Positions 44,420 to 64,000 of a stretch of DNA of 64,000 nucleotides are shown in pieces (the stretch's first letter is position 1; each line of letters opens with the position of its first letter). The translations under genes and the position numbers were made by a program. This DNA comes from Rhodobacteraceae bacterium (ex Bugula neritina AB1) (GTDB taxonomy: Bacteria > Pseudomonadota > Alphaproteobacteria > Rhodobacterales > Rhodobacteraceae): contig MDLF01000047.1 of NCBI GenBank assembly GCA_001730095.1, positions 49,311 through 113,310 of the forward strand, written 5' to 3'. Below the pieces are notes generated by a model. That model searched no databases, was not told the DNA's origin, and saw only the letters and a program-made list of their open reading frames with translations.

Positions 44420-45673
44420 CTAGTCCAATGAAACCGCCCATTCTCCTTTGCGCATCACGTGAACAATCTCCCCAGTTTTGGACACACCATCAATATCCAG
44501 CTGTGCAGACCCTATCATCCAGTCCACATGGATCATGCTTTGATTGCAGCCCCGCTCCCGCAACGTGCTGAGCGGTAACCCGCTTCCGGCTTCAATGGTG
44601 CTCGAGTAGCTTTGCCCGAAAGCCAGATGACACGAGGCATTCTCGTCAAAGAGGGTATTGTAGAACAAAACACCCGACCGGCTTATTGGAGACGAGTCTG
44701 GAACCAGAGCCACCTCGCCGATCCTGCAGGCCCCCTCATCCGTCTCGAGCAGTTCCCGCAGAGCATCCTGGCCCTTTGCGGCGTGCGCCGAGACCGCTTT
44801 TCCAGCTTCAAACCTGACCTTGATGCCGTCTATCAGTTGACCCTGGTAGGAGAGCGGCTTGGTCCCTGAAACAAGACCGCTTACCCTGTCGGCGTGCGGG
44901 CAGGTGAATACTTCCTCGGTGGGAATATTGGGCTGAAAGGCAACGCCGTTTCCAGCCAGTGACCTACCCCCTTTCCAAACATGACCGTCCGGCAATCCAA
45001 TCGTCAGATCCGTCCCCGGGCCTCTGTAACGCAACTCGGAAAACCTGCAGGTGTTCAGCCAATCTATGCGGGTCTTCAAATTCCTGGAATGCGCATCCCA
45101 ATTCGCAACCGGGTCCGGGCCCTCCAGGCGCGAGGCATTGAAGATCATGTCCATCAGCATTTTTTGGGCTTTTTCAGGCGCTTCCGAAGGAAAGACCTGA
45201 GATGCCCAGGCGGCGCCGGGAAAAGCAGTTACACACCAATTGACATCGAAATTGGCAATCGGTTTTGTTGCCGGTTTTGCGGCCCGGGACACCGCCTTGC
45301 TCAGCCGGGCGGCGCAATCCGGGTCCTGGTGCGCCAGCAGCATCGGATCGTTCCCCAAAATGCTCAGCCGGGCGGCGCCGTTCTCCAGGGCTTTGGCGAT
45401 CCCCTCATAGTACCACTCGGACGCATGGTCGAAACTCTCCGACGGCGCATGGAGAAACCGGGCCAGAGTCATTTCATCATCCGTGAAAAACGGAACTACA
45501 GCATTGGCACCTGCCTTGTAGGCATGAACGGCTACGCGGCGTATTAGCGGCAGAGCCTCTGCCGGGGCAAACACCACAAGTTCCTGGCCGGATTGCAGGT
45601 TCAGCCCGGTGCGCACTGTAATTTCCGCCAGTTTGTCGAGCTGGTCCGGGTCAATTCCGTGGGGCAACGTCAA
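44420..45673 (-). CDS. M29-family aminopeptidase
   Basis: The 417-residue protein matches thermophilic-type (AmpS/AmpT) M29 aminopeptidases. Metal ligands are in IPTEEVFTCPH (E253/E254), IGEVALVP (E320), SCHLAFGQSY (H349) and IHVDWMIG (H382, D384). The start is TTG 45673 behind GGAAGAGGAAT; no in-frame ATG fits. It is the last gene of the NRPS operon, 54 bp after the type II thioesterase. M29 enzymes remove N-terminal residues from peptides. Here it could mature the product, remove a protecting residue, or give self-protection by degrading it; none is shown. Confidence 0.88.
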   Translation of the reverse strand: MTLPHGIDPDQLDKLAEITVRTGLNLQSGQELVVFAPAEALPLIRRVAVHAYKAGANAVVPFFTDDEMTLARFLHAPSESFDHASEWYYEGIAKALENGAARLSILGNDPMLLAHQDPDCAARLSKAVSRAAKPATKPIANFDVNWCVTAFPGAAWASQVFPSEAPEKAQKMLMDMIFNASRLEGPDPVANWDAHSRNLKTRIDWLNTCRFSELRYRGPGTDLTIGLPDGHVWKGGRSLAGNGVAFQPNIPTEEVFTCPHADRVSGLVSGTKPLSYQGQLIDGIKVRFEAGKAVSAHAAKGQDALRELLETDEGACRIGEVALVPDSSPISRSGVLFYNTLFDENASCHLAFGQSYSSTIEAGSGLPLSTLRERGCNQSMIHVDWMIGSAQLDIDGVSKTGEIVHVMRKGEWAVSLD

Positions 45674-45727
45674 ATTCCTCTTCCGTGAAGTTTCTCATGC
45701 AAGCCTTCTGCAGACAGGTCCGCATTC

Positions 45728-46504
45728 TCAGGCGGTCACCGGCATCGGGCTGCGGACCCGGCAGTCGGCCAACTGCTCCTGCAGGTATTCCGCCAGTGGC
45801 TCCAGCCGCTCCTGAAAATACAAATGCGCCCCGGCAAACCCCTGCAGGTCAAAACCGCCGCCCGCAAATGCGCGCCATTGCGCCAGGCTTTCCTTCGGCG
45901 CTCGGCGGTCGCCCTCTCCGAACAGCGCAGAGACCGGAACCGGCAGTGGCGCTGCGGCGCTTACGCTGTGGGTTTCCGCGGCTTTGAGATCGGCCCTTAA
46001 GATCGGCAGTGCAAGTTCGGCCAAAACAGGGTCCCGCAACAGCTCGGCACCGGGGCCGCCAAACCCTTCAACCGCAGCGATCAAGCCGGAATCGGAAAGT
46101 TTGTGAACCGGCTCGGGGCGCGGCGCGGCCTGCGGCCCATGCGCTGACAGGAAAATGTGGCACAGCCGGTCGCCGCGCTGCAGCATCCTGCAAGCAAGCT
46201 CATAGGCGATCAATGCGCCGTAGCTGTGACCAAACAGAGCAACAGGCCCGTCCATGACAGCAGGGAGCTCAGCGAAAACAGCGTCGCAGAGAGCATTCAG
46301 TTCTTCGTGGGGCGCCTCTCTTAGCCGGTCCTGGCGGCCCGGATACTGAACGGCCACCACCTCAACGGCCGGAGACAGTCGCTGCGCGAGATCATAGAAG
46401 TTCCCCGCCACGCCGCCGGCAAACGGCAAGCAGATCAAACGGACAGCGTCTGGGCGGGCCCGCTGGTATTGACGGAACCAAAGCTTGTTTAACGTTTGTC
46501 TCAT
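45728..46504 (-). CDS. type II thioesterase (canonical Ser)
   Basis: The 258-residue alpha/beta hydrolase has the usual type II form: RLICLPFAGGVAGNFYDLAQ at the front, nucleophile elbow FGHSYGALIAYEL with Ser94, the acid in FGEGDRRAP and the His in FAGAHLYFQE. Such proteins clear misloaded or stalled acyl groups from NRPS carrier domains. It lies six bases after the nitrilase-family gene. Its normal Ser elbow contrasts with the Cys elbow of the other thioesterase homologue in this operon, which suggests separate jobs. Confidence 0.9.
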   Translation of the reverse strand: MRQTLNKLWFRQYQRARPDAVRLICLPFAGGVAGNFYDLAQRLSPAVEVVAVQYPGRQDRLREAPHEELNALCDAVFAELPAVMDGPVALFGHSYGALIAYELACRMLQRGDRLCHIFLSAHGPQAAPRPEPVHKLSDSGLIAAVEGFGGPGAELLRDPVLAELALPILRADLKAAETHSVSAAAPLPVPVSALFGEGDRRAPKESLAQWRAFAGGGFDLQGFAGAHLYFQERLEPLAEYLQEQLADCRVRSPMPVTA

Positions 46505-46510
46505 CGCGGA

Positions 46511-47362
46511 TTACAGGACAAACGACTGGAACGGGCCCGGATCACGGCCGGGGAAGTCGGCCAGCATAGTTTCCTCGCTTCGCACCCGCCGCAGTTCATC
46601 CGGGTACAAAACCGCTACGACCACCGTCTCGCTCTCCGCATCCGCCTCAGCCAGAACGGACCCGTAGGGTGACCAGATCGCGCTTGAGCCGCAGACGTCC
46701 CAGCCGCCGGTTTTCCCAACATGGTTGGACAGGACGCAGTAGAGAGTGTTGTCCAGCGCCCGGGCCGGATACCAGACGCGGGATTCGTGATAGCCGTTGC
46801 CCTGGCTGCACAAGGCGCTGGCAAGATACACATGGCACCCTTGCAGCGCCGCCGACCTCGCATGTTCAGGGAACCCCGCATCATAGCAGATCGCAAGCCC
46901 GAACCGCCATCCGTCCAGTTCCAGCGACACCCCGGTCTTGCCCGGGGCATAAAGCTGGCGTTCAGTGTGGAACAGGAACTGCTTGTGATACAAGCCGCGG
47001 ACCTCACCCGCGCGGTCAACAATCAAGGACGAAACGTGCAGCGCCCCCGCTTCAAAGGCTGCTGCGCCGACAACGGCGGCCATGTTTGCTTCGCGGCACG
47101 CGTCAAGTATCGGCTGGATGCGCGGATCGCCGCTGCGGACGGCATACCGTTCCGGATCCGAAGCGATCAGCCCGGTTTCATAACCGGTCAGGAATTTCTC
47201 AGGGAAGACAATGATCTCGGCTCCGGCTTGTTTTGCCTCCATGATCATTCTGGCGGCCTTTTCGGCATTTGCCTCGACATCCCCGGCAACCGGCTGGGCC
47301 TGAGCAGCTGCAACGGCAACAGGACGCGCCGGCATAGCAATGGTCTTCAAAGTGTTCGCCAT
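46511..47362 (-). CDS. nitrilase-superfamily amidohydrolase
   Basis: The 283-residue C-N hydrolase has the full E-K-C triad: E55 in VFPEKFLTGYE, K127 in LYHKQFLFHTER and C159 in AICYDAGFPEHAR. The order and length match N-carbamoylputrescine amidase/beta-ureidopropionase-like members. It starts three bases after the NRPS-3 stop behind GAGGAG, so it is tightly co-expressed. It could hydrolyse an amide in the peptide, or work in reverse to transfer an acyl group; the sequence does not decide. Confidence 0.88.
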   Translation of the reverse strand: MANTLKTIAMPARPVAVAAAQAQPVAGDVEANAEKAARMIMEAKQAGAEIIVFPEKFLTGYETGLIASDPERYAVRSGDPRIQPILDACREANMAAVVGAAAFEAGALHVSSLIVDRAGEVRGLYHKQFLFHTERQLYAPGKTGVSLELDGWRFGLAICYDAGFPEHARSAALQGCHVYLASALCSQGNGYHESRVWYPARALDNTLYCVLSNHVGKTGGWDVCGSSAIWSPYGSVLAEADAESETVVVAVLYPDELRRVRSEETMLADFPGRDPGPFQSFVL

Positions 47363-47365
47363 TTC

Positions 47366-50300
47366 TCAGGTCTCCTCAAGCTTCGGGGATTTGGCTGCAA
47401 CGTCGCAAACGAGCTTCGCAGCGTCATAGGGGCGTGTGCCCATGAAATAGTGCCCGCCGTCTTGCAGCACCTTGACCTCAAGCTGGCCTGCCAGCGGTTC
47501 CCAGCCGTGATGGCGGCCGTCAAACTGCGCTGTGGCCGGATCGTCTGAGGCCAGCACCAGAGTCACTGGCGCCGCAAGCTGCAGGTGGCGCGCACCGCGC
47601 AGCCGGTTCAGCAGGTATCCGTTTGCTTCCAAGGAATCGTGACGGAAGACGTCAACGATAAAGGTTTCAAAATCCGGCCCGGCGTTCACCAAGCCGTCCT
47701 CTCCAGCCCATTCCTTGTACAGATCCCGGATGTCGTCAAACCGCAAGTTGCGGGCGTTTTCCATTGTCGCGGCAACTTCCTCCGGTTCCGGCAGGATCTT
47801 TGCTGCCAGAAAAACATGCTGCAGTACCTGTGGAGCAGTTTCCTGCAGCCGTTCAGCAACCGCTATGGCCAGTGCAGACCCGACACAGTGCCCCCAAATG
47901 CAGACCGGGCCATCACCGCGTTTCTCTATCTCTTCGGCAATCTGCGCAACCGTGGTCTCGAAGTCTGCCAGCCCTGCGGCCGCACCTCCGAACGTGTGGC
48001 CGGGAAGCTCTGCCCCCAGAACGGCAAACTCAGGCCAGAGTTTTGCCAGGGCCCGCGCAAACGGGAGAAAGTGCCCGGCGTTTCCGCCCGCATATGGCAG
48101 ACAGACCACGGTTGGAGCTCTGGCTTCTGCGCTGCCGGCCAGATGCATCAGGATAGGCTGCCCGCCGGCCTCTGCCTCCGGCCCAGCAACGGCTGCTGCC
48201 ATTTCAGACAACCGGGAATGCTGCATGAACTCACGCAGTGAAATCTTCCCATCCAGCTCCAGAACAACCCGCAGCGCCGAAAGTGAATTGCCGCCAATTT
48301 CGAAAAAGTCGCTGTCCTTGTGAAGGCTGGTTCCTGACAGTTTGAGGATTTTTTCCCAAACAGCTGCAAGCTCGGCCTCGAAAGCAGTCAGCGGCGCATC
48401 CTCCGCGGGACTGCCAGCCGTCCGCATTTCTTCAACAGCGGATGCCCCTAGGCGGGTCAAACCCCCCTTGCTGTCCCACTTTGCAATCTCACCCGAGGCT
48501 TCGATCCGGCCGTAGGTTCCGATCGGTGCCAGATTGCCGCTGCCATCTAGGATCGCGCTGCGGTCTTCCTGTGCAGCCGAGAAGGCGTCAATTTCCGCCT
48601 GTTCGCCCGGCGACAGAAGTGCGGAAGCATTATGATCCGCATCAGGAGTTTCCAGCATGCGCCGGAGAGCCTCGACAAAATAGCCGCCAATCCTGAAAAT
48701 GTGGCTCTCGTCAAAGCTGGCGGTGTGATAGTGCAGGCTGAGGTTCACTTCATCGGTGTAGAAATGCTGTGACACTTCCACCCGCAGCGGGAATTCGGTG
48801 ATCGCTGCCGCACGCACATCCAGCAGGGTGAACTCGGGCAGCTTTTTTAGCTCCTTGAGCGAGTAGAAGTGAGTGAAGTTGAACACCGTTTCAAAAAGCA
48901 GATCTGTCGTTCCGCGGTCTTGCTTAACCTGCGCCATCGGGTAGCGTCGGTACGGCAGAACCGAGGCCTCCGCCTCGTAGGTCTGGCGGATCAGGTCACG
49001 CCAGCTGCCTGCAGCCAGGCTGACCCGGAAGGGCATGGTGTTAAGAAAAACGCCAAGCGCTCGTTCCGCCCCCGGCAATTCCGGCCGCCCGCCGATTTCA
49101 TACCCGGTAAAGACATCCGGGCTGCCGCTGATGACGCTCAGCACTTTCAGATGCGCCGCCAGCAAAACATCCTTGAGCGGAACGCCCTGCTCTTGCGCCA
49201 GGGCCACAATCCGGTCCGACATCCCCGGCGGCAATTCGATGTCGCGGAAGCTGACATCAATTGTTTCACCTGGGACGGCCTCACGCAGGCGGGGAACATC
49301 CGTCTGCGGGCAGTTTTCCAGATGCGCTTCCCAGAAAGTGCGGAATGCCGGCGACTGGATAGCGTGCTGTTCCAGCCCGATGAAATTGCGCAGATGGTGA
49401 TCCGCTGCGCGATCTTCATAAACTCTGCCTTCCTTCAGGCCATGGTAAATCTTGAACAGTTCGGTGTGGAGTTGGTTCATGCTCCAGCCGTCCAGCATCG
49501 AGTTGTGCTGGCTGATGCTGTACCGGAACAGATCATCCGCCAGAATGTGAATATGCAGCCGTACGATTCCGGGTTGCTGCCAGTCAAACGGCCGGCTCTG
49601 CTCCTGCTGGAACCAGCTGGCATAGTGCGCGTCCTGTTCTTCCTCCGAGACAACGCCGCGCAGGTCATCAATAACTAGAGGCAGATCTCTAACTTCGGAA
49701 TGCACATACTGCATGTACTGCTCGTGTTCCTTGAGACGGTAGCTGGTGCGCAGAATCGGGTTGGACCTGACGAGCAACCCTACTGCTTCAGTAAACAGCT
49801 CCGTGTCGATTTCGCCTTGGATCAGGAAGCTGACAATGTCGTGGTAACTGGTGTTCCCATGCATCATTTCGCTTTGAAAGATCAGCCCGGCCTGCAGCAT
49901 CGACATCGGATATGCGTCTTCGATGCCGGCCGGAATCCGGGCACGGTCGGCTTCCGAGATGAGCGAAAAGGCCTCAAACTCCCGGGGCGCAGCATCCCCC
50001 TCCGCCAAAGGTTCCGCGGCATGGACGATCTCGCGAATGGTCGGGTGGCTGAATAGCTGCTGGAAGGAGAAATCCAATCCCTGAGCCCGCGCCTTGGCCA
50101 GAACCGAAACAAAGTGGATGGAATTGCCGCCAAGTGCAAAGAAGCTCTCAGTGACACTGATCCGCTCAAGGCCAAGAACCTCTTGCCAGATCTCTGCCAG
50201 CGCTTTCTCCTCTGCGGTTTCCGGCGCGGCATATTCGGCACGCTCTGAGACCGGATCCGGCAGCGCGTTGCGGTCGAGCTTGCCGCTTTGCGACAACGGA

Positions 50301-52492
50301 AAAGCTTCCAGACGAAGTATCCGTTCCGGCACCATGTATTCCGGCAGGTGTTCTGCCAGCCTGGCGCGCATTTCCGCCTCATCCGCAATGTCATTTCCCA
50401 GAAGGTAAGCCCAGAGATGCTGCTGGCAGTCGCTTCCTTCACGGACAATGGCCACAGCATTTGAGACACCCGGAAGTTCCAACAGCCGGCTTTCAATTTC
50501 TCCGAGCTCGATCCGGAAACCGCGCAGCTTCACTTGGAAGTCGTTCCTGCCAAGGTATTCAACCGTGCCGTCCTGCCGCCATCTGGCGAGATCGCCGGTC
50601 CGGTACAGCCGCTCCTCGCCTACAGTTTCGCCGTCTACGAAACGATCTGCTGTCAGCTCCGGGTTGTTTATATACCCCCGGGCAAGCCCGCGTCCGGCAA
50701 GATACAGTTCACCCGCCATATCCACCCCGCAAGGCGCCATCGAAGAATCGAGAATATACAGCCGCGTATTGGCGATCGGGGCGCCGATCGGCACAATTGT
50801 CTCATCCCCCTTGAGGGCGAAATGGGTCACGTCCACAGTCGCTTCGGTCGGGCCGTAGAGGTTGATCAGGCGGCATCCCTCTTCGCCGAATGCTTTGAAA
50901 AATACCTGCACCTGATTGACTTGCAAGGCTTCGCCACTGGTGAAAACCTGTCTCAGCGATTGCAGACGAGTGCCCTCGTCCAAAGTGCTCGTGTAGTCAA
51001 GAAACGCGCCGAGCATTGTGGGGACGAAATGCATGACCGTCACACCGAACTGCTCAATTGCTTCAATCAATGCCGCTGGTTCTTTCTCCGCTCCTGGTGC
51101 GGGCACAGCAAGCCTGGCGCCTTCAGTCAACCACCAGAACAATTCCCAGACCGAAACGTCGAAGGTCAGCGGCGTCTTCTGGATCAAGCAATCGCCGCCG
51201 GTCAGCGGGTAGGAAGCCTGCATCCACTGCAAGCGGTTGACCGCACTGTGGTGCTCAACCAGCACCCCCTTGGGTTGGCCCGTCGAGCCGGACGTATATA
51301 TCACGTAAGCGCCAGCCCGGGGATCGACGTCCGGCAGACCGGCACGGTCCAGCAAGGGCACGCCGCGGTGGGAAAGGTCAAAGACCGGCACGGAGCCATC
51401 CAGGTTATGTCGGTTCTCTTCAGCGCAGAAGACGGCCTGCGCACCGCTGTTGGACAAACAATAGCGGATGCGGCTTTCCGGCTGCGCTGGGTCCATCGGC
51501 AGATAGGCCCCCCCTGCCCGCAGGATGCCGATAATCGCCGCCAGTGTTTCGAAAGACCGCGGCGCCAGGACGCCGATCACCGGATTTTCCCCAAGGTCTG
51601 CACTCAGCACTTCCGATGCTACATGGCGCGACGCTATTTCCAGCTCGGCGAAACTGTAGACGCCGGTGCTGGTCAGGACCGCTGGATCCATCCCGCGGGC
51701 TTCAAATGTTCTGTCAAACAAGGCCGTCAGAGAAGTGACAGGAATTTCCGCATCGGTCCGGTTGGCCGACGCAATCAACGCTTGGTCCTGGTCCGTCATC
51801 AGGCTGCACATTGAAAGAGGCGCCTTGGCATTTTCCACGGCATAGGCTGCCAGTTTCAGGAACCGGCGCGCGAAACGTTCCGCAGCCGCAAATGAAAGCT
51901 CTGCAGGGTTCGCATAGATTTCAATCCGCGGCCTATCCGGCTGACGGCGGTATACCAGAAGCAGAGACACATTCTCCTGCATTTGGGGAAGCTCGTCCCC
52001 ATCGCAGACAGCAACCGCAACCCGAGTGTCCGGCGCTGAGAGATCAAAGGGGTAATCCCGGTTGCGAAGCGCCAATTCGCCGTTTTTGGCAGTGCGGGAC
52101 AGAAGCGTTTGCAATGTCTCTCCGGGCTCGAACTGAGACCGGATGGGTAACAGGAGGCGTCCGCCCGTGCGCGGGTTCTCCCACCACAGCGACAGAACCC
52201 CGTCATCGGCACCTTCCAGGCGCCAAATCAGCGCAGACGCCATTGCCACAGTAAACATCTGCAAAGCCGATTTGTCCTGCTTGCTGCCGCGCCAGATCCG
52301 GCTATCCAGGTCCTGCGGCATGTCCAGGCCCGCGCATAGCTCCAGCGCGTTTCCTGGGCTTAGCCTGACACCGTCGCTGGACAGCGAAAAGGCGGCAGCG
52401 CCGTCCAGAAATCCGGTCCAGAATTCTTGGGCTTCAGGGTTGAGGTTGGCGTTGATTCTGCGTTCGCCAACAGTCATGTGAATGGTTTTCAT
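47366..52492 (-). CDS. NRPS-3: half-C, A(Ser), PCP, C, PCP, TE
   Basis: The 1708-residue synthetase starts at ATG 52492 (GGAAA upstream). Residues 1-235 are only the second lobe of a C domain. A domain about 260-750 gives the specificity code D-V-W-H-F-S-L-V-D-K, the serine code of EntF. PCP1 has S791 in LGGNSIHF. The C domain, about 850-1280, has QHNSMLDGW with Asn997 where the catalytic second His is expected. A linker of about 90 residues follows, then PCP2 (S1403 in IGGNSLSAL) with no A domain, and a thioesterase from about 1440 with WGHCVGS, so the nucleophile is Cys1536. The last module therefore must be loaded in trans. It overlaps neither neighbour; NRPS-2 ends 16 bases upstream. Confidence 0.93.
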   Translation of the reverse strand: MKTIHMTVGERRINANLNPEAQEFWTGFLDGAAAFSLSSDGVRLSPGNALELCAGLDMPQDLDSRIWRGSKQDKSALQMFTVAMASALIWRLEGADDGVLSLWWENPRTGGRLLLPIRSQFEPGETLQTLLSRTAKNGELALRNRDYPFDLSAPDTRVAVAVCDGDELPQMQENVSLLLVYRRQPDRPRIEIYANPAELSFAAAERFARRFLKLAAYAVENAKAPLSMCSLMTDQDQALIASANRTDAEIPVTSLTALFDRTFEARGMDPAVLTSTGVYSFAELEIASRHVASEVLSADLGENPVIGVLAPRSFETLAAIIGILRAGGAYLPMDPAQPESRIRYCLSNSGAQAVFCAEENRHNLDGSVPVFDLSHRGVPLLDRAGLPDVDPRAGAYVIYTSGSTGQPKGVLVEHHSAVNRLQWMQASYPLTGGDCLIQKTPLTFDVSVWELFWWLTEGARLAVPAPGAEKEPAALIEAIEQFGVTVMHFVPTMLGAFLDYTSTLDEGTRLQSLRQVFTSGEALQVNQVQVFFKAFGEEGCRLINLYGPTEATVDVTHFALKGDETIVPIGAPIANTRLYILDSSMAPCGVDMAGELYLAGRGLARGYINNPELTADRFVDGETVGEERLYRTGDLARWRQDGTVEYLGRNDFQVKLRGFRIELGEIESRLLELPGVSNAVAIVREGSDCQQHLWAYLLGNDIADEAEMRARLAEHLPEYMVPERILRLEAFPLSQSGKLDRNALPDPVSERAEYAAPETAEEKALAEIWQEVLGLERISVTESFFALGGNSIHFVSVLAKARAQGLDFSFQQLFSHPTIREIVHAAEPLAEGDAAPREFEAFSLISEADRARIPAGIEDAYPMSMLQAGLIFQSEMMHGNTSYHDIVSFLIQGEIDTELFTEAVGLLVRSNPILRTSYRLKEHEQYMQYVHSEVRDLPLVIDDLRGVVSEEEQDAHYASWFQQEQSRPFDWQQPGIVRLHIHILADDLFRYSISQHNSMLDGWSMNQLHTELFKIYHGLKEGRVYEDRAADHHLRNFIGLEQHAIQSPAFRTFWEAHLENCPQTDVPRLREAVPGETIDVSFRDIELPPGMSDRIVALAQEQGVPLKDVLLAAHLKVLSVISGSPDVFTGYEIGGRPELPGAERALGVFLNTMPFRVSLAAGSWRDLIRQTYEAEASVLPYRRYPMAQVKQDRGTTDLLFETVFNFTHFYSLKELKKLPEFTLLDVRAAAITEFPLRVEVSQHFYTDEVNLSLHYHTASFDESHIFRIGGYFVEALRRMLETPDADHNASALLSPGEQAEIDAFSAAQEDRSAILDGSGNLAPIGTYGRIEASGEIAKWDSKGGLTRLGASAVEEMRTAGSPAEDAPLTAFEAELAAVWEKILKLSGTSLHKDSDFFEIGGNSLSALRVVLELDGKISLREFMQHSRLSEMAAAVAGPEAEAGGQPILMHLAGSAEARAPTVVCLPYAGGNAGHFLPFARALAKLWPEFAVLGAELPGHTFGGAAAGLADFETTVAQIAEEIEKRGDGPVCIWGHCVGSALAIAVAERLQETAPQVLQHVFLAAKILPEPEEVAATMENARNLRFDDIRDLYKEWAGEDGLVNAGPDFETFIVDVFRHDSLEANGYLLNRLRGARHLQLAAPVTLVLASDDPATAQFDGRHHGWEPLAGQLEVKVLQDGGHYFMGTRPYDAAKLVCDVAAKSPKLEET

Positions 52493-52508
52493 GGCCGGGT
52501 TTCCAATT

Positions 52509-55500: not shown

Positions 55501-55658
55501 CCCTGCGGACTCTCAACTGCAATCGCATCTGGCCGCAGGTCCACTTGGGTTTCAAAAACCCCATGCACGGACGCAGGCAGAGCGGCCCCCAAGGGGCCGG
55601 ACATAACCGGCTCTGCCTTGCGGGCTGCCGGCAGGCTGTCAAAGGTAGAATTCATCAT
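52509..55658 (-). CDS. NRPS-2: A(Val), PCP, C
   Basis: The 1049-residue synthetase has an A domain at about 30-510 (YVMYTSGSTGKPKG; ending TSHGKVDR). Its specificity code reads D-A-F-W-I-G-G-T-F-K, the valine code of gramicidin S and surfactin synthetases. The PCP has S555 in LGIDSLAAAR, and the C domain at about 610-1030 has an intact MHHIIADGVT. It starts without a C domain, so Val is the first residue it handles. Its C-terminal C domain should join Val to the Ser on NRPS-3, whose own N-terminal C domain is truncated. The start overlaps the ATP-grasp stop (ATGA). Confidence 0.93.
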   Translation of the reverse strand: MMNSTFDSLPAARKAEPVMSGPLGAALPASVHGVFETQVDLRPDAIAVESPQGSLSFAALNRAADDLAARLRRETTVANEIIGIRFTRCAEWIVAMLAVLKAGGCYLPLNPKDPEARVAALLEDARPRLILKPSRVAGEFRIENRQSASSEPDAEGLCEDRAAYVMYTSGSTGKPKGVVVSHRNILRLTQGRNPVPLGPGTRTMQTGAPTFDAVTFEIWGTLLNGGCVILPGEDTILSAAALGKELAARQATTLWLTSPLFNQLAAEDSAAFKPLSHLIVGGDVVVRRHVQAVQASCPGLTVVNGYGPTENTTFSTMHVIQHDDPAMDVPIGLPIAYSTAYVLDNQGSPAAPGTEGELFVGGDGVALGYLNQAELTAERFLPDPFTGKGRMYRTGDLVRQRKDGEIVFLGRRDSQVKVRGYRIELGEIENLLREHEEVSEAVAAVAESPLGPKLVVYAVADETISDLDLRSYLLSVLPGHMVPHFIVFLEALPLTSHGKVDRSRLPTLEEFDLLSPEYVAPETELELQLADVISQCTGLDGAGTADSFFDLGIDSLAAARISAALQKETGIHVPVTSLLAHPSIAELSTFLQSKDCKPQSEPPVSPAPGLDGVFPLTPQQMPLYVEQMKNPASVRYNVPVMIDLPTDTDFDRLEQALSELVQQREALRLVMQLSQPPSQRIAGMTPVALPRVPRAVDPKQDIRPFDLQTGPLWRASLHDTGSGWQLFLDMHHIIADGVTLAMVLGDLDRLYRGEALSAAGASFAEISQWAHEGAGAELREAQRAFWRSRLQDTPVLRDSLPMDFPRTPERSRESGVLRFDLGAARLQRCKLAAKNYRLTLFELLAGVYGLFLSRVTGEQTVTFGIPAHARAETGFSEAYGMLANTVCVRLETGGDAAAGAFLRTSGQVLRDSIAHQHFPFRDLVDMTESAGNPARNPLFDTLFALQTRDSLTVDFLGAKHLLRPLPPGQAMFDLNLQLYQSDTGIDAEWEYDASLFQRDTVVALQGILLDLVDQLTDPAADTLPVSRLGVLPSTPAGQARPEAELEFDF

Positions 55659-56914: not shown

Positions 56915-59749
56915 TCACGCCCGGTCTTCAGTGGCAGCCAAATGCGCATTCAAGGAGGCAGGCGTCGGCTTCAGGTAGAGATCCTTGAGCGTGACATGCC
57001 CGTACATGGTCTTGCGGATTTCCGAGACCAGGCGCACCGCGGTCAATGAATTGCCGCCAATGAGGAAGAACTCGTCTCCAGCGCCGGTTTCCCCGTCGAA
57101 GAAGAGATTCCAGATGCCGAGCATTTGCTGCAGATCATCCTGCGGCTGTACGCGGCCTCCTCCTGCGCTCCCGTCTAGCACGCTCTCCGTTTCACGGGCT
57201 CTTTCACGCAGTGTCTTGACGTCGAGCTTGCCATTGACCGTGAGCGTCAGCTCTTCCACCGGCAAAATGATAGACGGCATCATGTAGGCCGGCAGATATT
57301 TCGAAACCGATTGCCGGACAATCTCCGGAGTGATCCGGTTCTCCAGCACCACAAAGGCATCCAGCCGTGCGCTTGATGGGTCGCCTTCACGGGCTTCGGT
57401 CACCACTACTGCTGCTGCCTTGACCCCTGCAACGTTCTGGATCACCGATCGGACTTCTTCCAGTTCAATCCGGAAACCCCGGATCTTCACCTGGCTGTCA
57501 ATGCGGCCCATGTGCTCCAGGACGCCTCCGGGCAGCAGCCGCCCTAGATCCCCGCTACGGTACATCCGCTGACCCGATACAGGGTCGGAAATGAAGCGCT
57601 CTGCGGTGAGATCCGGCTGGTTCAGATAACCTTCCGCCAGACCGGCGCCGCCAACATAAATCTCACCAGGTACCCCCAAGGGCTGCACCTCACCATCGTT
57701 GTTGCGGACTGAAACCGACCATCCCGGAAGCGCCGGTCCAACCGCCATCGAGCCTGCAAGGGCAAGCTGCGGTGAAAACTCTTGCAGGGTGACATGCACG
57801 GTAGTCTCCGTGATCCCGAACATGTTGATCATCCGGCATCGTGCCCCCGGGTACTTGCGGTACCAGGGCAGCAGTACCTGCGCGTTCAGCGCTTCGCCTC
57901 CAAAGATCACCAGCCGCAGCTTTTCCAGCATTGGCCGGCCGCGGTCGGCCTGGCACAATGCATTGAAAGCCGAGGGGGTCTGGTTCAGAACTGTGACACC
58001 CTGTGCTGCAAGCAGGTCATGAAAGTCCTCCGGCGACCGGCTGACCCAATAGGGCACGACGACCAAAGTACCACCGGTCAGGAGGCAGCCCCAGATCTCC
58101 CATACAGAAAAGTCGAACGCTGCGGAATGGAAGAAAGTCCAGACATCTTCTGCACCGAGTTTCATGGTCTCGCAGGTTGCGCTGACCAGGGCCGACACAT
58201 TCCGGTTCGGAACCCCGACGCCTTTCGGACGTCCAGTGGAGCCGGAGGTGAAGATCACATACGCTGTTTTGTCCGGGTCCGCATTAGAGGCCGTGAGTTC
58301 ATCCCCGCCGGCGCAGTCTTCCAACTCATCAGGTGCTATCCGCCGCACGCCCTCAACTTCAGGAAAGGCATCCTCGGCGGAGATCACGGTCGTTAGCTCG
58401 GCCTGTTCAGCAGTGTAGCGCAGCCGTTCTTCCGGGTAGTCCGGATCCATCGGCACATAGGCTGCGCCGATACGGGCTGCTGCCAGCATCGAAGCGATAA
58501 GCTCAATGCCTCGGTCCAGGCACAAGCCGACCCGGCCGCCTGCAGTTACGCCCAGCTCCAGCAGCCCCGACGCCAAACGGCCCGACATTGCCAGCAACTG
58601 TGCATAGCTGACCTCCTGGCCTTCAAACCTGAGCGCGACGGCATCCGGTGTGTCCGCCGCAACGCGTTCGAACATTGCAGCAATGCTCACGGGGGCGCCG
58701 GTAGCTTCCTGTGAGCAGCCGCCAAGATCCAGAATCTCACCAACTTCCTTCTCTGAAAGCACCGGTACGCTGGCCGCGTGCCCCGAAATAGTGCCCACTG
58801 AGAGATTCCGCGCAATCCGGCCCAGCTGCCGGGCAGTGCGCTGCGCTATCGGGCTCGACAACAGGCATGTGTCGAAATCCAGTTCTGCTCTGGCAGAGGC
58901 GCCGCTGCTGGTCTGGAATATGCGCAGAGAGACCGTAAAAGGCGAAGGGAAGCACGGCGTATAAACCTCTTCGCCTTGCAGCACAGCCAGTTCGACGCCG
59001 ATTTCAAACGGCTCCGCCCTGTCAGCGGGAAAGGCCTGCACAGTCAAAGCCTCTGCCCCCGCAAGGAAATCCTCGACGGTGTCATTGGGAGTGAGGCCTG
59101 CAAAAAAGGAGCCAAAAACAGCCCCCTCTGCCTGGCTGGCCGCGAGCACAGGCAAGACCGGGTTCTGGACGCCGTAACGTGCAAGCAGGATGCCGAGCGC
59201 AGCCACCAGGACTTTGCCGACGCTGTCCGCCGGAAGGCCTTCCAGGTCCAGTGCAACAGTCTGCCTGCCCTCTGGGCCTTTGCGGCTGCCCAGCCCCCAT
59301 TCGCAGGTTTGCGCCCCCCAAACCACCTCCGAAGCGGGATCGCCAGAACGTACGGGAAGCGGTTGTGCCGGTGCCCCGGCCGGGGTTCCCAACACAGCCG
59401 ATGAAAGCCGGCTGAGATCCTGCAGAGTGTATTGGCTCATGCGCCCGGTAAGCGTCAGGACGCCTTCTCCGTCCGGAGCCGCAAACAAGACCGCCCTGCC
59501 TTCTCCATTGCCGGTTTTGCGGCGCTGCTCACGCCCGATCAACCGCTCGGAATGCGGGTGGTTCACTGAGTTAGCAAGCGGTTCGGCCCAGACGCTGAAA
59601 CCATGCTCCTCCAAGGTCCTGAACCGTGCGCGCACCCGCTCCAGCGCCTCACTGCCGGACACACTACAAGTCAGCGTGTGATAGCCGCGGACCGGAAGCT
59701 CGCTCCCCACCGGTGTGAAGCCTGTGCTCAAGTTAAATGAAGTATTCAT
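56915..59749 (-). CDS. NRPS-1: degenerate C, A(Thr), PCP
   Basis: The 944-residue synthetase has about 350 N-terminal residues resembling a worn condensation domain without any HHxxxDG. An A domain follows (A3 YVIFTSGSTGRPKG at 497-510; FGITETTVHVT; LTVNGKLD), then a PCP with S901 in IGGNSLTAVRL. The A-domain specificity code reads D-F-W-N-I-G-M-V-H-K, the classic threonine code. No C or TE domain follows. NRPS-2 has no N-terminal C domain either, so Thr cannot pass to Val in the normal way; delivery to the A-less last module of NRPS-3 is the best fit. Shine-Dalgarno GGAAA precedes ATG 59749. Confidence 0.92.
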   Translation of the reverse strand: MNTSFNLSTGFTPVGSELPVRGYHTLTCSVSGSEALERVRARFRTLEEHGFSVWAEPLANSVNHPHSERLIGREQRRKTGNGEGRAVLFAAPDGEGVLTLTGRMSQYTLQDLSRLSSAVLGTPAGAPAQPLPVRSGDPASEVVWGAQTCEWGLGSRKGPEGRQTVALDLEGLPADSVGKVLVAALGILLARYGVQNPVLPVLAASQAEGAVFGSFFAGLTPNDTVEDFLAGAEALTVQAFPADRAEPFEIGVELAVLQGEEVYTPCFPSPFTVSLRIFQTSSGASARAELDFDTCLLSSPIAQRTARQLGRIARNLSVGTISGHAASVPVLSEKEVGEILDLGGCSQEATGAPVSIAAMFERVAADTPDAVALRFEGQEVSYAQLLAMSGRLASGLLELGVTAGGRVGLCLDRGIELIASMLAAARIGAAYVPMDPDYPEERLRYTAEQAELTTVISAEDAFPEVEGVRRIAPDELEDCAGGDELTASNADPDKTAYVIFTSGSTGRPKGVGVPNRNVSALVSATCETMKLGAEDVWTFFHSAAFDFSVWEIWGCLLTGGTLVVVPYWVSRSPEDFHDLLAAQGVTVLNQTPSAFNALCQADRGRPMLEKLRLVIFGGEALNAQVLLPWYRKYPGARCRMINMFGITETTVHVTLQEFSPQLALAGSMAVGPALPGWSVSVRNNDGEVQPLGVPGEIYVGGAGLAEGYLNQPDLTAERFISDPVSGQRMYRSGDLGRLLPGGVLEHMGRIDSQVKIRGFRIELEEVRSVIQNVAGVKAAAVVVTEAREGDPSSARLDAFVVLENRITPEIVRQSVSKYLPAYMMPSIILPVEELTLTVNGKLDVKTLRERARETESVLDGSAGGGRVQPQDDLQQMLGIWNLFFDGETGAGDEFFLIGGNSLTAVRLVSEIRKTMYGHVTLKDLYLKPTPASLNAHLAATEDRA

Positions 59750-59766: not shown

Positions 59767-60591
59767 TTACCGGGCAGTAAAGCCCGCATCCACAGTGGTG
59801 ATTGTTCCCGTAACCCGGCGCGACTTTCCGCTCGCCAGCCAGACCATCGCGTCGGCGACATCCAATGGGTCGACAACCGAAGACATGGCAACCGACTCAA
59901 GATCCACGGCCTCCTGCTCCTCCAGTTCCAACCCGAGCGCATCAGCAACAACGCCAGTCATATGGCCGTCCATTACCGGATCGTCGCGAACAGGGCCGGG
60001 GCAAAGAGCGTTCACGCGGACATTCATTTTCGCATAGTCCAAGGCGGCCGATTTCGTCAGGCCGATCACCGCATGCTTGGACGCCACATAGGCACCGAAG
60101 CGGCGGTATCCGACCAGGCCGGCGGTTGAAGCCACGTTGATGATGCTGCCCTGGGATTGCTCAACCATGACCGGAGCAACCGCCGCAATCATGCGCCAGA
60201 CACCGCTCAGGTTCACGTCCATCATGACCTGCCATTCCGCTTCCGAATACTCGTGTGCCATCTTGCCGGCCGGTGCCCCGACAGCAGCGTTGTTTACAAG
60301 GACGTCGATACTGCCAAACCGCTCTTTGGCCAGCGCGGCGGTCCGGCGACAATCCTCCATGTTACGGACATCAGCGATGACCGGCAGCACGGCAGCGCCC
60401 AGCTCTCTGCACATCTCTGCGGTCCGCTCGATCTGCGCACTGCTGGCCAGCCGGTACGGCACGTCTGGCAGAGCGGCGTCCACATCGGTGATGACAATAT
60501 TGGCGCCTTCTTCCGCTGCACGCAGCGCGCATGCACGGCCAATGCCGCGCCCGGCCCCGGTGATCACAACGGTGCGGTCAGACAGCAGCAT
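59767..60591 (-). CDS. short-chain dehydrogenase/reductase
   Basis: The 274-residue SDR starts at ATG 60591 behind GGGGAGG; earlier in-frame starts lie deep in the preceding gene. It has the nucleotide site VVITGAGRGIGRACALRAAE, D in ITDVD (NAD preference), VLVNNAAVGA, and catalytic Ser/Tyr/Lys in NVASTAGLVGYRRFGAYVAS and the next K. An extra stretch after the Asp (DVPYRLASSAQIERTAEM) resembles the insertion of mycofactocin-associated SDRs, which hold NAD tightly. In this operon it could oxidise the Thr or Ser hydroxyl or reduce a carbonyl in the product. It overlaps the upstream thioesterase gene by 14 bases. Confidence 0.9.
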   Translation of the reverse strand: MLLSDRTVVITGAGRGIGRACALRAAEEGANIVITDVDAALPDVPYRLASSAQIERTAEMCRELGAAVLPVIADVRNMEDCRRTAALAKERFGSIDVLVNNAAVGAPAGKMAHEYSEAEWQVMMDVNLSGVWRMIAAVAPVMVEQSQGSIINVASTAGLVGYRRFGAYVASKHAVIGLTKSAALDYAKMNVRVNALCPGPVRDDPVMDGHMTGVVADALGLELEEQEAVDLESVAMSSVVDPLDVADAMVWLASGKSRRVTGTITTVDAGFTAR

Positions 60592-61321
60592 AGCGGGCCT
60601 CCCCGGCTTCGGCGCCGATCTCGGCCAAAATAGCGAACAGCTCGCTGGGATCGCTTGCGAGATACATATGGCCTCCCCGGACATCCTTGAGAGTGAAAGA
60701 ACTGCTAGTGTAATCGGACCAGGCCATCACTTCCTCGCGCGCCACCAAAGCATCCTGATCGGCTGCAATCGCCGTGATCGGCACCGGAAGCTTACGGACG
60801 CCGGAAGAAACATATGTCTCGTCCATGATGAAATCGGCCCGCAACGGCGGCAGCAACAGCTCCCGCATTTCCGGAATATCCATCGCCTCATGCGTGTAGC
60901 CGGTGGTTGACTTCACCAATTCAAGAAAGGCGTCATCCGACATGGAGCCCGTTCCTAGCTGCCGGGAAATTTCCGGAACCCGCGAGGCGCTGACCACAAG
61001 GTGGCGCACCAGGCCCGGTTTGGCAGCAATCAACCTATGGGTGATTTCGTAGGCCAGCACAGACCCCAAGAAGCAGTGCCCGAACACAATCAGAGCCTCA
61101 TCTCCAGCGCCGCCGACTTCCGCCAGAATATTGCCTGCCAGTTCACCCGCGGCCTTCTGCAGGCAGGTGAAAGGCGGCTCGGCAATCAGCCGTTCACGCC
61201 CCGGCAGCATTACCGGAGACAGCTTAAATGCGGAGAACCCTGCATGCGCCCACCCATGATAAAAACTGGCACCCGCACCTGCAAATGGAACGCAAATCAG
61301 CTTCATCGTCGTTAATTCCAT
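60578..61321 (-). CDS. thioesterase-like aminoacyl-shuttle candidate with Cys nucleophile
   Basis: The 247-residue alpha/beta hydrolase looks like a type II thioesterase (LICVPFAGAGASFYHGWAHA at the front). The elbow reads VFGHCFLGSVLAYEI, with Cys83 in place of Ser and one extra residue in the loop. The acid and His are in AADQDALVARE and VRGGHMYLAS. Cys nucleophiles are found in the SyrC and CmaE acyltransferases, which move an aminoacyl group from one carrier domain to another. Here it could carry Thr from NRPS-1 to the A-less end of NRPS-3. Start ATG 61321 follows AAAGAGAG; ATG 61306 is an alternative. Confidence 0.85.
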   Translation of the reverse strand: MELTTMKLICVPFAGAGASFYHGWAHAGFSAFKLSPVMLPGRERLIAEPPFTCLQKAAGELAGNILAEVGGAGDEALIVFGHCFLGSVLAYEITHRLIAAKPGLVRHLVVSASRVPEISRQLGTGSMSDDAFLELVKSTTGYTHEAMDIPEMRELLLPPLRADFIMDETYVSSGVRKLPVPITAIAADQDALVAREEVMAWSDYTSSSFTLKDVRGGHMYLASDPSELFAILAEIGAEAGEARYAAV

Positions 61322-61361: not shown

Positions 61362-62603
61362 TTAGCTGACAGATACTGACCCCGCTGCATTTTCTCCCGG
61401 CGCGGTCATTTCGGTCAATTTCCTGTCCGTCGCCTTTTTCAAAGCAATCATTACAAACACATTTCCAACGAGGCAGATGCCGGACAATCCGAACAGCATG
61501 GCATTGATGCCGATGCGTTCACTGAACACGCTAACGATCAGACCTGCGAGCGGGTAGGAAAATACAATTACCAACACCATTAATCCCAAGGTCTTCCCAA
61601 GGTCCTGTTTTGGGATATTCTTCACCCGTTCTGTCCGCAAATAAACACCGGCTGATGCATCGGCCATGACCACAACCGCGAACCCTACGAAGAACACCCA
61701 GTACTGCGAGGCTAAAGCCGCAATAAACCCGCCCAGAGAGACCCCCAGGAACGACGCCACGCCGACAAAAAAAATCGAATAGCGGCGGGACAGAACCGGT
61801 ACAATGAACATGCTGCAGATCGTTACCGCGGCGGCGGTGAAACTGAGCGCGCCAAAGTAGAATTCGGGAAGGCCAAAGGTGCCGGTCACCATTGCTGCAC
61901 CGATCGACAGCAGCGAGCAGTATACAACATTGACCAAGATCCCGTAGGCGCAAAGAAGCATAAGAGAATGATTCGAAATCAGGATTTTCGCCCCATGCAA
62001 GATATCCGCCAATGGTGCCCCGGCGTCCCCCCGTTCAGCAGCAGCATTCACGCCACGTGAAAGCAGCATATTCAGCAAGCTGACAAAAAAGGCAGATCCG
62101 GCGATCAGATAGAGAACCTCTTTGTCTACAACCGCAAGCAAAGCCGCCGCAGCAACCGGCCCCAGCAGCAGGCTGAACTGATCCACTGCCTGCAGCATGG
62201 ATTGCGCTTTGTGTAATTCTTCGGACGGCATGTATTTGGGTATCAGCGTTTCTAGCGCCACAAACGCCTGATTGAGGCAGAAACACATTATGCCCGCTGA
62301 AATGCTAACAATCAGAAATGCATGCTGCGGGGCCGCGTTGAGAAGCAGGAAAACGGTTGCGCACGCAAAAAGGCGTATTCCATCCGAAACAGCGTAGAGG
62401 CGTGAACCGCCGATCCGGTCCGCCATAATGCCAGCAAAAGGCAGGGCCAGCAACCCGACCCCCCATTCGATAGCAAAACTCAAACCAGCCTTGGAAACGC
62501 TCCCGGTGATTTGGAATACGATCAAAGGCGCAGCAAACAGCGTTATTTGCGTTCCCAATGCGGACAAAAATCTTGCCAACAGGAACCGATAGAATGCGGT
62601 CAT
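61362..62603 (-). CDS. MFS exporter
   Basis: The 413-residue protein starts at ATG 62603 behind GAGAGGTTGGG; a longer frame upstream is not supported. About 12 membrane segments are visible, with MFS motif-A-like FAGIMADRIGGSRLYAVSDG after segment 2 and a central loop near residue 195. It resembles the MFS_3/enterobactin-exporter (EntS-like) group that often travels with NRPS clusters. It is likely to export the peptide and give self-resistance. A 15-bp palindrome lies about 140 bp upstream, so this gene may have its own promoter. Confidence 0.88.
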   Translation of the reverse strand: MTAFYRFLLARFLSALGTQITLFAAPLIVFQITGSVSKAGLSFAIEWGVGLLALPFAGIMADRIGGSRLYAVSDGIRLFACATVFLLLNAAPQHAFLIVSISAGIMCFCLNQAFVALETLIPKYMPSEELHKAQSMLQAVDQFSLLLGPVAAAALLAVVDKEVLYLIAGSAFFVSLLNMLLSRGVNAAAERGDAGAPLADILHGAKILISNHSLMLLCAYGILVNVVYCSLLSIGAAMVTGTFGLPEFYFGALSFTAAAVTICSMFIVPVLSRRYSIFFVGVASFLGVSLGGFIAALASQYWVFFVGFAVVVMADASAGVYLRTERVKNIPKQDLGKTLGLMVLVIVFSYPLAGLIVSVFSERIGINAMLFGLSGICLVGNVFVMIALKKATDRKLTEMTAPGENAAGSVSVS

Positions 62604-62740
62604 CCCAACCTCTCGAATTTTGACGGACTCCGGCCTAATTTTCCGAAAATGGAATCTCCTCGGCCTTTCCGTAATTCTATTATAGGGAGCGTTGAGTTTG
62701 ATCAATACTCTCTAAAGGATATTACTGCCACAGCCAACAT

Positions 62741-62755: not shown

Positions 62756-62765
62756 GGTGAACCGC

Positions 62766-63143
62766 TTAGGCGGCGCCGGGCGCGGCATGTGCCGGAAATC
62801 CCCCACAGCCGAGCGCGTGATGCAAATCCGCTAGCTTCTCAATATGCTCAGGTTGCAGAACCCGGTGGTCCAGGTCCCAATGACGCAGCCGGCTGCACAG
62901 ATCCTCAAGAGCCATCGCAGCGACGTCCTGCGGCAATGGAGACAAGGACAAAGCCCGGTCAATCATTTCGGCCCGGCACAACAGGACCGTCAGTTCGTCC
63001 AGAGCCAGCTGGCGGGCGTCTCCCGCTGACGAATGCCCATGCAGGCGCTGATAACAACTTAGAGCAAAGCCGTGCAGCAGTTTGAGCTGGTCCGCAACAT
63101 CCGCAGAAAGTGGCCTTTGCTGAAACATCGAAATTCCAGACAT
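62766..63143 (-). CDS. small hypothetical protein in the NRPS operon
   Basis: The 125-residue protein starts at ATG 63143, five bases after the aldolase stop; a frame extending to 63218 overlaps the aldolase and is less likely. It is mostly helical (SADVADQLKLLHGFALSCYQ, AMALEDLCSRLRHWDLDHRV) with no signal peptide or membrane segment. No family was recognised. Tight coupling to the aldolase gene suggests a partner or a small helical accessory protein. Confidence 0.6.
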   Translation of the reverse strand: MSGISMFQQRPLSADVADQLKLLHGFALSCYQRLHGHSSAGDARQLALDELTVLLCRAEMIDRALSLSPLPQDVAAMALEDLCSRLRHWDLDHRVLQPEHIEKLADLHHALGCGGFPAHAAPGAA

Positions 63144-63148
63144 TGCTT

Positions 63149-63910
63149 TCAGTACCTTTGCTGCGGCAGCTGCCGGCCTTCGCGGACACGAGCCAGCTTG
63201 CGCTCGAGATAACTCCAATACGTGCTGACAGCCGCGTCGGAAAAGATGAACTCTTCCTTCTCCGTGATGTCACTCCCCTCGGATCCGGAGATATGGCCGC
63301 TTGCCTCTGCCCTTAGCTGCAAGGCGCAGGCTTGCTCCAGGCAAACAGCCAGAACTGCAGCTTCCTGGATTGTACCGCCAACCGTAACCAGACCGTGGTT
63401 CTTCAGCAGCACCGCCTTGCCAGCGCCCAGGGCGTCCGCCAGCCGGCCTGCCGTGTTTAAGTCCAGAATAGTATTGGTGGTCAGGTCAAAGTAGCCGAGC
63501 GCCCCCGCAAAAACGCATCCATCATGGCTCAGCGGGACTAGCGGCCGCCGCTTCGCACCAAAAATGAGCGCGTTGGGAGCATGTGTGTGAACAATGGCGT
63601 TTACTCCCGGGCAGCGCGCATAGACAGCGCTGTGAATGGGCCACTCGGGAGGGACGGTCACTGTACCAGACAGCCTGCCGCCATCCATGCCGCATAGAGC
63701 GAATGATGTGCTGGACGCCTCTTCAAACCCCATCGCCGCGCCCCGGATCCAATATTCGGCGGAAGATCCACGGCGTGCAGAGATCTGGCCATGGTTCAGG
63801 TCGTTTTGCCCTTCCATGTACAGGATGTGGCAAGCCGTGGTCAGCCGTTTGATCAGCGCCTTGTCCAGCGGCGCCCCCACTGCGCCCTCAGCACGAGCCG
63901 GCATATTCAT
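63149..63910 (-). CDS. class II aldolase/adducin-family protein
   Basis: The 253-residue protein carries the zinc ligands of this family in VHTHAPNALIF (two His) and LLKNHGLVTVGG (third His). Family members cleave or form C-C bonds next to a carbonyl (fuculose phosphate aldolase type), and some are decarboxylases or have lost catalysis. In this operon it may supply or edit a beta-hydroxy building block. Its start overlaps the upstream carrier-like gene (ATGA), so it belongs to the operon. Confidence 0.85.
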   Translation of the reverse strand: MNMPARAEGAVGAPLDKALIKRLTTACHILYMEGQNDLNHGQISARRGSSAEYWIRGAAMGFEEASSTSFALCGMDGGRLSGTVTVPPEWPIHSAVYARCPGVNAIVHTHAPNALIFGAKRRPLVPLSHDGCVFAGALGYFDLTTNTILDLNTAGRLADALGAGKAVLLKNHGLVTVGGTIQEAAVLAVCLEQACALQLRAEASGHISGSEGSDITEKEEFIFSDAAVSTYWSYLERKLARVREGRQLPQQRY

Positions 63911-64000
63911 GCCACCACCTCCAGTGCCAACTGCACCTGGACAAACTCTGCGATGGTTGCAGTGTTTTGCAGGAAAGAAGCATCCTCATTCATGTCGATA
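63907..64000 (-). CDS. C-terminal tail of an unknown protein, possibly a carrier protein
   Basis: Only the last 30 residues are inside the window (ending ATIAEFVQVQLALEVVA). The pattern, an acidic stretch then a helix with a conserved-type V/F spacing, resembles the last helix of free-standing acyl or peptidyl carrier proteins. Too little is present to be sure. Its stop overlaps the aldolase start by four bases, so the operon continues to the right. Confidence 0.4.
   Translation of the reverse strand, partial: IDMNEDASFLQNTATIAEFVQVQLALEVVA

Follow-up and report, generated by a model that had tools for sequence, protein, structure and literature searches.

The operon and its three peptide synthetases

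The 64,000-nucleotide stretch of contig MDLF01000047.1 analysed here (the window), from Rhodobacteraceae bacterium (ex Bugula neritina AB1), carries on its minus strand a nonribosomal peptide synthetase (NRPS) operon whose last module lacks an adenylation (A) domain, and its loading with threonine in trans is well supported. From its upstream end the operon comprises an MFS exporter (61362..62705; Pfam-type domain match), a type II thioesterase-like protein (TEII; 60578..61321), a short-chain dehydrogenase/reductase (SDR; 59767..60591), NRPS-1 (56915..59749), an ATP-grasp ligase with a LAL_C2 domain (55655..56878; assigned by domain scan and a Streptomyces homologue), NRPS-2 (52509..55658), NRPS-3 (47366..52519), a carbon-nitrogen (C-N) hydrolase (46511..47362; domain scan), a second type II thioesterase of the Ser type (45728..46504; domain scan and motif GHSYG), which is probably a housekeeping enzyme, and an M29 aminopeptidase. 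From the MFS gene on, neighbouring genes are separated by at most 60 bases or overlap slightly. All reading frames lie where the initial annotation had placed them, the start codon of the SDR probably being the ATG at 60591 rather than that at 60684, judged by the upstream GGGGAGG. The host genome yields only two Condensation matches at E 0.001 or better, both inside this operon.

By Pfam, NRPS-1 contains AMP-binding, AMP-binding_C and PP-binding only, the last being its peptidyl carrier protein (PCP; 56939-57127); NRPS-2 contains an A domain, a PCP and one condensation (C) domain with the motif HHIIADG, in the order A-PCP-C; and NRPS-3 contains one A, one C, two PCP and one thioesterase (TE) domain in the order A-PCP-C-PCP-TE. 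The A10 lysine is present in all three A domains, and their ten-letter codes, DFWNIGMVHK (NRPS-1), DAFWIGGTFK (NRPS-2) and DVWHFSLVDK (NRPS-3), are ones that we take to specify Thr, Val and Ser, respectively. Compared by hhalign with a profile of 58 C domains, the first ~350 residues of NRPS-1 (58700-59749) are a full-length degenerate C domain (probability 97.9; columns 17-340 vs 38-461), because of which we regard this protein as being without a working C domain, and the first 262 residues of NRPS-3 (51734-52519) are the C-terminal lobe of a C domain only (probability 99.6). The initial annotation had described NRPS-1 as A(Thr)-PCP without a working C domain, NRPS-2 as A(Val)-PCP-C without an N-terminal C domain and NRPS-3 as ending in C-PCP-TE without an A domain, and all three descriptions are borne out. 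The extension of NRPS-1 aligns at 20-29% identity with those of the corresponding proteins in 14 of the Streptomyces loci described below. Extensions of ~300 amino acids are also described on the stand-alone A-thiolation (A-T) proteins of enduracidin and ramoplanin synthesis, and ramoplanin trans-complementation is reported to require it (PMC8949500); deletion of endD is reported to abolish enduracidin, in which allo-Thr is residue 8 (PMC13320435).

The same assembly line is present in two other organisms. On plasmid p2 of Vibrio tasmaniensis LMG 20012 the order is TE, SDR, NRPS-1, NRPS-2, NRPS-3, AzlC/AzlD, C-N hydrolase and phosphopantetheinyl transferase, with identities over the matched parts of 37% (TE), 51% (SDR), 44% (NRPS-1), 34% (NRPS-2) and 42% (NRPS-3); at megablast identity this record is the sole one with the stretch among 72,556 plasmid records. 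The Streptomyces genome G1072 has TE (48% identical), SDR (66%), NRPS-1, ATP-grasp (48%), NRPS-2, NRPS-3 (C domain 65%, TE 43%) and an MFS gene directly after NRPS-3, which is too unlike the MFS gene of the window for tblastn at E 0.01. The ATP-grasp gene, which has the same position in the window and Streptomyces G1072, thus occurs in two of the three versions; at E 0.01 the 34.6 kb Vibrio locus yields no match to it. The C-N hydrolase of the Vibrio cluster is 28% identical to the 46511..47362 protein, and the 55.9 kb around the Streptomyces cluster hold a single 55-residue match to it, ~18 kb beyond the TEII gene of the cluster. Across the three clusters the codes are Thr or Thr-like (DFWSVGMVH in G1072), aliphatic and Ser, the aliphatic code of Vibrio (DAFLLGAVI) being unlike the Val codes of the window and G1072. 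NRPS-2 ends in an acidic tail in each cluster (ELEFDF in the window, 52512 onward, and EIEFEF and AFDFDF in the others), which may dock on the C-lobe that heads NRPS-3.

The cluster is sporadic in the genomes sampled. The NRPS-3 region from C to TE has no close copy in 149 genomes of the host family (next best 75 bits) or in 398 genomes of the phylum (next best 166 bits), and in 385 genomes of the host class the next best match of the ATP-grasp protein is 75 bits, each sample including the host itself. A literature search found no published description of any of the three clusters. That the assembly line occurs in the host, on a Vibrio plasmid and in Streptomyces suggests a product useful enough to be retained once transferred.

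Loading of the last module in trans

PCP2 of NRPS-3 (48185..48367; Pfam, motif GGNSL) is the acceptor that has no A domain of its own. Between it and the last C domain (48590-49921), the window, Vibrio and Streptomyces clusters alike have a stretch that matches A-domain columns 344-418, and the joint profile of the three sequences places this remnant at 48449..48565 in the window. The joint profile scores 57.4, a value that none of 150 column shuffles reached (best 27.6), and the reversed profile scores 20.3. Single-sequence HMM searches gave 3.0, 4.4 and 1.6 bits vs 3.2 for the best shuffle, which is noise, and single hhalign queries gave probabilities of 35, 82 and 81 at the same place; the convincing support is that of the three-sequence profile alone. 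On this comparison the A-less module of NRPS-3 is best read as having arisen by loss of its A domain, and with such a remnant directly before it PCP2 would need to be loaded in trans. That Thr from NRPS-1 must reach PCP2 in this way to give a Val-Ser-Thr-type peptide had been proposed in the initial annotation, and domain order, codes and scar all support it. The C domain that precedes the scar has the core motif HNSMLDG (49487..49507, minus strand), in which the second His of HHxxxDG is replaced by Asn; the motif is HNSxLDG in all three clusters, and the NRPS-2 C domain retains HH in all three. Among 27 C domains in the fetched loci, Vibrio and G1072 included, 24 have HH, two HN and one HA, the last in the sister cluster L035 (see below).

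The TEII, the SDR and the stand-alone A-PCP protein with its Thr code adjoin one another in the window, which also provides the A-less C-PCP acceptor module, and the three genes form a cassette that recurs in other genomes. Searching 199 Streptomyces genomes with the SDR gave 37 matches in 33 genomes at E 1e-65 or better, and the counts that follow cover the 20 loci fetched. A TEII homologue adjoins the SDR in 19 of them (the exception is L074) and an NRPS-1 homologue in 18 (the contig ends at L073, and none was seen at L078), most having the order TE-SDR-A/PCP; in G984 the cassette lies beside a different NRPS. The trio is also found on the Vibrio plasmid p2 (L034) and, in the order TE, A-PCP, SDR, in Amycolatopsis coloradensis (L006), and in S. 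albireticuli and S. eurocidicus (L004, L005) TE and A-PCP are present but lack an adjoining SDR match. S. tuirus (G889, L008) was missed by the SDR search and is counted as a miss because its SDR, pieces of which adjoin TE and A-PCP, is apparently split over two frames in the assembly; those who described this cluster are reported to suspect sequencing errors elsewhere in it. The A-domain code is DFWN(I/V)GMVH in L004, L005, L006, L008, L034 and L085 and DFWSVGMVH in L083 and L084. The initial annotation had listed an SDR and an ATP-grasp ligase as extras of the operon; both are present, and conservation of the cassette extends to the SDR.

The TEII at 60578-61321, a Pfam Thioesterase protein that in the PDB matches type II thioesterases best, 6vap and RifR among them, is by its position in the cassette the proposed shuttle of Thr or allo-Thr, with Cys83 in the motif GHCFLG as its nucleophile. 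Of the 19 Streptomyces cassette TEs, 17 have Ser as nucleophile, as do those of Vibrio, L004, L005, L006 and L008; Cys (GHCFLG) is limited to the window, L063 (G1072) and L064 (G984), whose TEIIs cluster in the tree at 88/74; confined as it is to three proteins that group together, the Cys is a subclade feature. The Ser-type TEII LgnA of legonmycin synthesis is reported to transfer Thr in vitro from an A-T protein to the T domain of another protein (PMC8748450). Since both LgnA and most cassette TEs carry Ser, Cys does not mark the shuttle function, so that of the earlier proposal of a Cys protein as carrier the residue itself and a likely carrier role stand and the Cys as a functional mark does not. 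We consider it improbable that the TEII only edits and that NRPS-1, charged with Thr, is itself the acceptor for the last C domain. Editing is the usual role of type II TEs and the degenerate C domain of NRPS-1 could dock with NRPS-3, but the active-site motifs of PCP2 and of the TE are intact, and in legonmycin synthesis aberrant acyl-Thr on the stand-alone A-T protein is reported to be hydrolysed by LgnA, the S77A variant of which abolishes the product.

The SDR, in which the catalytic YxxxK is present, is the proposed C-beta epimerase of the cassette. Each of the six cassette SDRs scanned has TIGR03971 (mycofactocin-coupled SDR) as its best NCBIfam model, and the window SDR aligns across the NAD-site insertion, with one single-residue gap, with PDB 3tsc, which we take to be a mycobacterial SDR of this family. 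In members of TIGR03971 the NAD is described as buried by the insertion, and the family is said to be confined to species that have mycofactocin markers (PMC5264612). Such a captive NAD would suit an enzyme that takes and returns a hydride on one substrate. For globomycin it has been proposed that GlobE loads Thr, that GlobD oxidises and re-reduces it at C-beta and that GlobC shuttles or frees it (PMC9943842), and by analogy allo-Thr is the likely residue delivered to PCP2. An SDR that stops at beta-keto Thr, leaving a peptide that ends in 2-amino-3-ketobutyrate or a methyloxazole derived from it, appears unlikely. Its YxxxK and a SagB-like dehydrogenase gene upstream on the same strand (L003:5946-7166) would suit that outcome; against it, neither the Streptomyces region of 55.9 kb nor the Vibrio region of 34.6 kb gave a match to the SagB-like protein at E 0.01, a closed redox cycle would suit a buried NAD better, and the products of clusters with TEII, SDR and Thr A-T proteins are reported to hold allo-Thr, Thr or, in himastatin, D-Thr.

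Our data suggest, with moderate confidence, that the operon makes a peptide of the type aliphatic(Val)-Ser-Thr, the last residue being activated by NRPS-1, probably epimerised, and shuttled in trans to PCP2. NRPS-2 would load Val first and its C domain would hand it to Ser on PCP1 of NRPS-3, Thr being activated separately by NRPS-1. The SDR would oxidise the beta-hydroxyl of the NRPS-1-bound Thr and re-reduce it from the opposite face to render L-allo-Thr, which the TEII would then carry to PCP2. The second C domain of NRPS-3 would couple Val-Ser to the delivered residue and the Cys-type TE would free the product. Domain order, codes, scar, conservation of the cassette and TE residues can all be read from the sequences; trans transfer and epimerisation we infer from described relatives.

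Several points weigh against this pathway. We know of no product for any of the three clusters. The HNxxxDG of the last C domain puts a normal condensation in doubt, the AMP-ligase gene upstream (L003:1471-2928) is a possible alternative loader, and the absence of an adjoining SDR match at L004 and L005 means that the A-PCP/TE pair may work without an SDR. All six cassette SDRs score 254-296 bits and fall below the curated TIGR03971 cut-off of 300 bits. The cassette was likened to the Glob, WS, Hmt and Rth proteins by their descriptions, the sequences compared being those of the 20 Streptomyces loci. The making of allo-Thr by an SDR is itself presented as a proposal (PMC9943842), and for PM130391, which comes from the S. 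tuirus cluster containing cassette L008, the residue reported is Thr, no configuration being given in the parts of its description that we could draw on.

The terminal thioesterase and the genomic setting

The Cys that stands out more in this operon is that of the terminal TE of NRPS-3 (47369..48136, minus strand), whose predicted triad of Cys1545 (47885-47887), Asp1660 (47540-47542) and His1690 (47450-47452) has the layout of the obafluorin beta-lactone TE. The nucleophile lies in GHCVG (GxCxG), and the Vibrio and G1072 homologues are likewise of Cys type. In an alignment of eight TEs the Asp and His are invariant and the Cys is found in seven, L035 having Ser. The best PDB match is holo-ObiF1 (5.6e-24), above RifR and 8w2c/8w2d, both of which the PDB match table names only as NRPS and which we take to be SulM. 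At position I, as located by aligning with ObiF1, the window and G1072 have Ala and Vibrio has Gly, so that the NRPS-3 TE shows the arrangement of the ObiF type, with the Asp at position II only. For the TEs of both ObiF1 and SulM a Cys nucleophile and a catalytic Asp shifted to position II are reported (PMC6668435, PMC11298585), and the C1146S change in ObiF1 is reported to turn its TE towards hydrolysis. In the tree the NRPS-3 TEs fall, away from the cassette TEIIs, in a large clade with the TE of an obafluorin cluster (L054), the NRPS of which matches ObiF1 over nearly its whole length; inner support is weak, L054 is on a long branch and the three NRPS-3 TEs group at only 71/73. Another obafluorin-like cluster (L087, G786:C1:4690000-4704000) combines an NRPS that matches ObiF1 over its length with a DHB-AMP ligase domain, and Embleya (L098) and S. 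clavuligerus (L099) have NRPSs with GHCGV Cys-type TEs that match the NRPS-3 TE at 31-35%.

With a beta-hydroxy amino acid as the last residue, release as a beta-lactone would be possible, and the lactone would be trans because of the L-allo-Thr configuration, but this idea is speculative. The chance that the TE simply hydrolyses or macrocyclises the trans-loaded peptide, to give a plain linear or cyclic Val-Ser-Thr in which the Cys nucleophile has no special meaning, is only a little short of even. Four Cys-type TEs with unfamiliar products (L038, L039, L040, L048) lie in the same clade, so Cys alone does not fix the reaction, and AB3403, called uncharacterised in the account available, combines a Cys TE with an Asp in the usual place (PMC11298585); against plain release, the Asp position and the beta-hydroxy last residue both suit a beta-lactone. 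ATP-grasp ligases, CysD and BelU, are reported to complete other beta-lactone peptides (PMC11427300), and by analogy we speculate that the ligase at 55655-56878 adds a further residue.

Joined into one account, these ideas describe a horizontally spread minimal assembly line for an allo-Thr tripeptide beta-lactone, which as a whole we hold to be doubtful. The terminal module would have lost its A domain a single time and then been wired to the allo-Thr cassette; the buried NAD of the SDR epimerase would be reduced and re-oxidised in one cycle, so that no free NAD or mycofactocin would be needed; the Cys-type TE would close the allo-Thr beta-hydroxyl onto the thioester to form a trans-beta-lactone warhead; and the ATP-grasp ligase would append a residue, in the way that CysD and BelU act on peptides of the beta-lactone kind.

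A globomycin-like inhibitor of LspA was considered and rejected as highly improbable. The residue order Val/aIle-Ser-aThr equals that of globomycin modules 5-7 (PMC9943842) and the host genome has two lspA matches, but the three NRPSs have neither a fatty-acid/PKS loading domain nor a Gly module, and both lspA genes are on other contigs; at least two lspA matches also occur in 9 of the 60 other family genomes searched (10 of 61 with the host). ThrRS as a target with an immunity copy was likewise unsupported, the genome having one match over the thrS cut-off.

Upstream of the operon, beyond the window edge and on the same strand, lie genes for a class II aldolase, the AMP-ligase, a weakly acyl-CoA-dehydrogenase-like open reading frame (ORF), an alpha/beta hydrolase, a DapB-like reductase, the SagB-like dehydrogenase, an MFS protein and an AraC regulator. 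The run from AMP-ligase to AraC regulator (L003 1471-9782) resembles a second biosynthetic unit, and its genes have no match at E 0.01 around the Streptomyces and Vibrio clusters, save A-domain cross-matches of the AMP-ligase. At the other side, 37141-43127 of the window hold Tn7/Tn5053-like transposition genes (TniQ, TniB, rve/Mu-C transposase) that end ~1.3 kb from the 3' end of the operon, including a 225 aa ORF (42450-43127) that has no Pfam match and is TnsA-like by eye. Diverged direct repeats occur in this stretch (41142-41285 with 42263-42406, 83%; 42122-42189 with 42448-42515, 79%).

Comparison with described systems

The three-protein NRPS is small enough to be purified whole, which makes the formation of allo-Thr on a carrier protein directly testable, and it also offers a test of whether other beta-hydroxy residues are turned into beta-lactones by a Cys TE that has the obafluorin triad. 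The remnant of the A domain, together with a sister cluster that retains the domain, shows how a module can shift from cis to trans loading.

The initial annotation had modelled the operon on syringomycin synthesis without its SyrB2 halogenase. In SyrB1/SyrB2/SyrC/SyrE, as here, a stand-alone Thr A-PCP protein is reported to feed an A-less C-PCP-TE terminal module, and this trans-loading logic holds, as does the lack of a halogenase, no non-haem iron halogenase domain being found in the scanned operon proteins or ten upstream ORFs. Product and size differ from those of syringomycin, SyrC was likened to the TEII by description, and the nearest described kind is instead the TEII-SDR-A/PCP cassette of globomycin, WS9326A, himastatin and rotihibin, likewise compared by description. 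The comparison with SyrC has been made before, for S. tuirus PHM034, L008 lying on contig JAGTPG010000001 of that strain (PMC10609185); the residue is reported there as Thr, and our own reading of the tabulated data suggests that its beta-proton shift fits an ester.

GlobC/D/E, HmtF/G, WS20/21/22 and RthB/C/D are reported to be the same three protein kinds, close together and with Thr specificity. HmtF/G (himastatin) and WS20-22 (WS9326A) were named as the same set as Glob in a 2023 paper that called the origin of L-allo-Thr "not elucidated" (PMC9943842). In rotihibin, the set is RthB, RthC (the SDR) and RthD (the TEII), with L-allo-Thr at an A-less module, and the portion of that report available to us assigns no role to RthC (PMC8552735). 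Most of these cassettes are reported to serve an A-less C-PCP module, globomycin itself being reported to keep its A domain; unlike them, the window cassette feeds the C-terminal module of a very small NRPS and has a TEII with Cys instead of the usual Ser. Legonmycin synthesis (LgnA/LgnB/LgnD) is similar in that a TEII takes Thr from a stand-alone A-T protein and passes it to the T domain of a different subunit (PMC8748450), whereas in the account available it involves no SDR step and the Thr ends as dehydrobutyrine.

As in ObiF/ObiF1 of obafluorin synthesis, the terminal TE has a Cys nucleophile, Asp at position II and His, and a beta-hydroxy last residue would be released; the window differs from ObiF in having two more modules and trans loading, and the Pfam scan of NRPS-3 gave no aryl-activating or MbtH domain. 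The sister cluster on a plasmid of Streptomyces sp. NBC_01431 (L035, 10865-25018) has the same NRPS-2/NRPS-3 layout with a complete last module, that is, A(Val code)-T-C plus an A(Ser code)-T-C-...-T-TE protein with an N-terminal extension of ~260 aa, together with an MFS gene and a LAL_C2 ATP-grasp gene. Unlike the window it keeps the A domain of the last module (code DIWELTADD), has sbnA/sbnB and a Ser-type TE, and shows no SDR or TEII match in the locus listing; its product perhaps ends in diaminopropionate. Set beside these systems, what is new in the present operon is that an allo-Thr cassette is joined to a minimal NRPS in which the A domain of the last module is reduced to a scar and the TE is ObiF-like.

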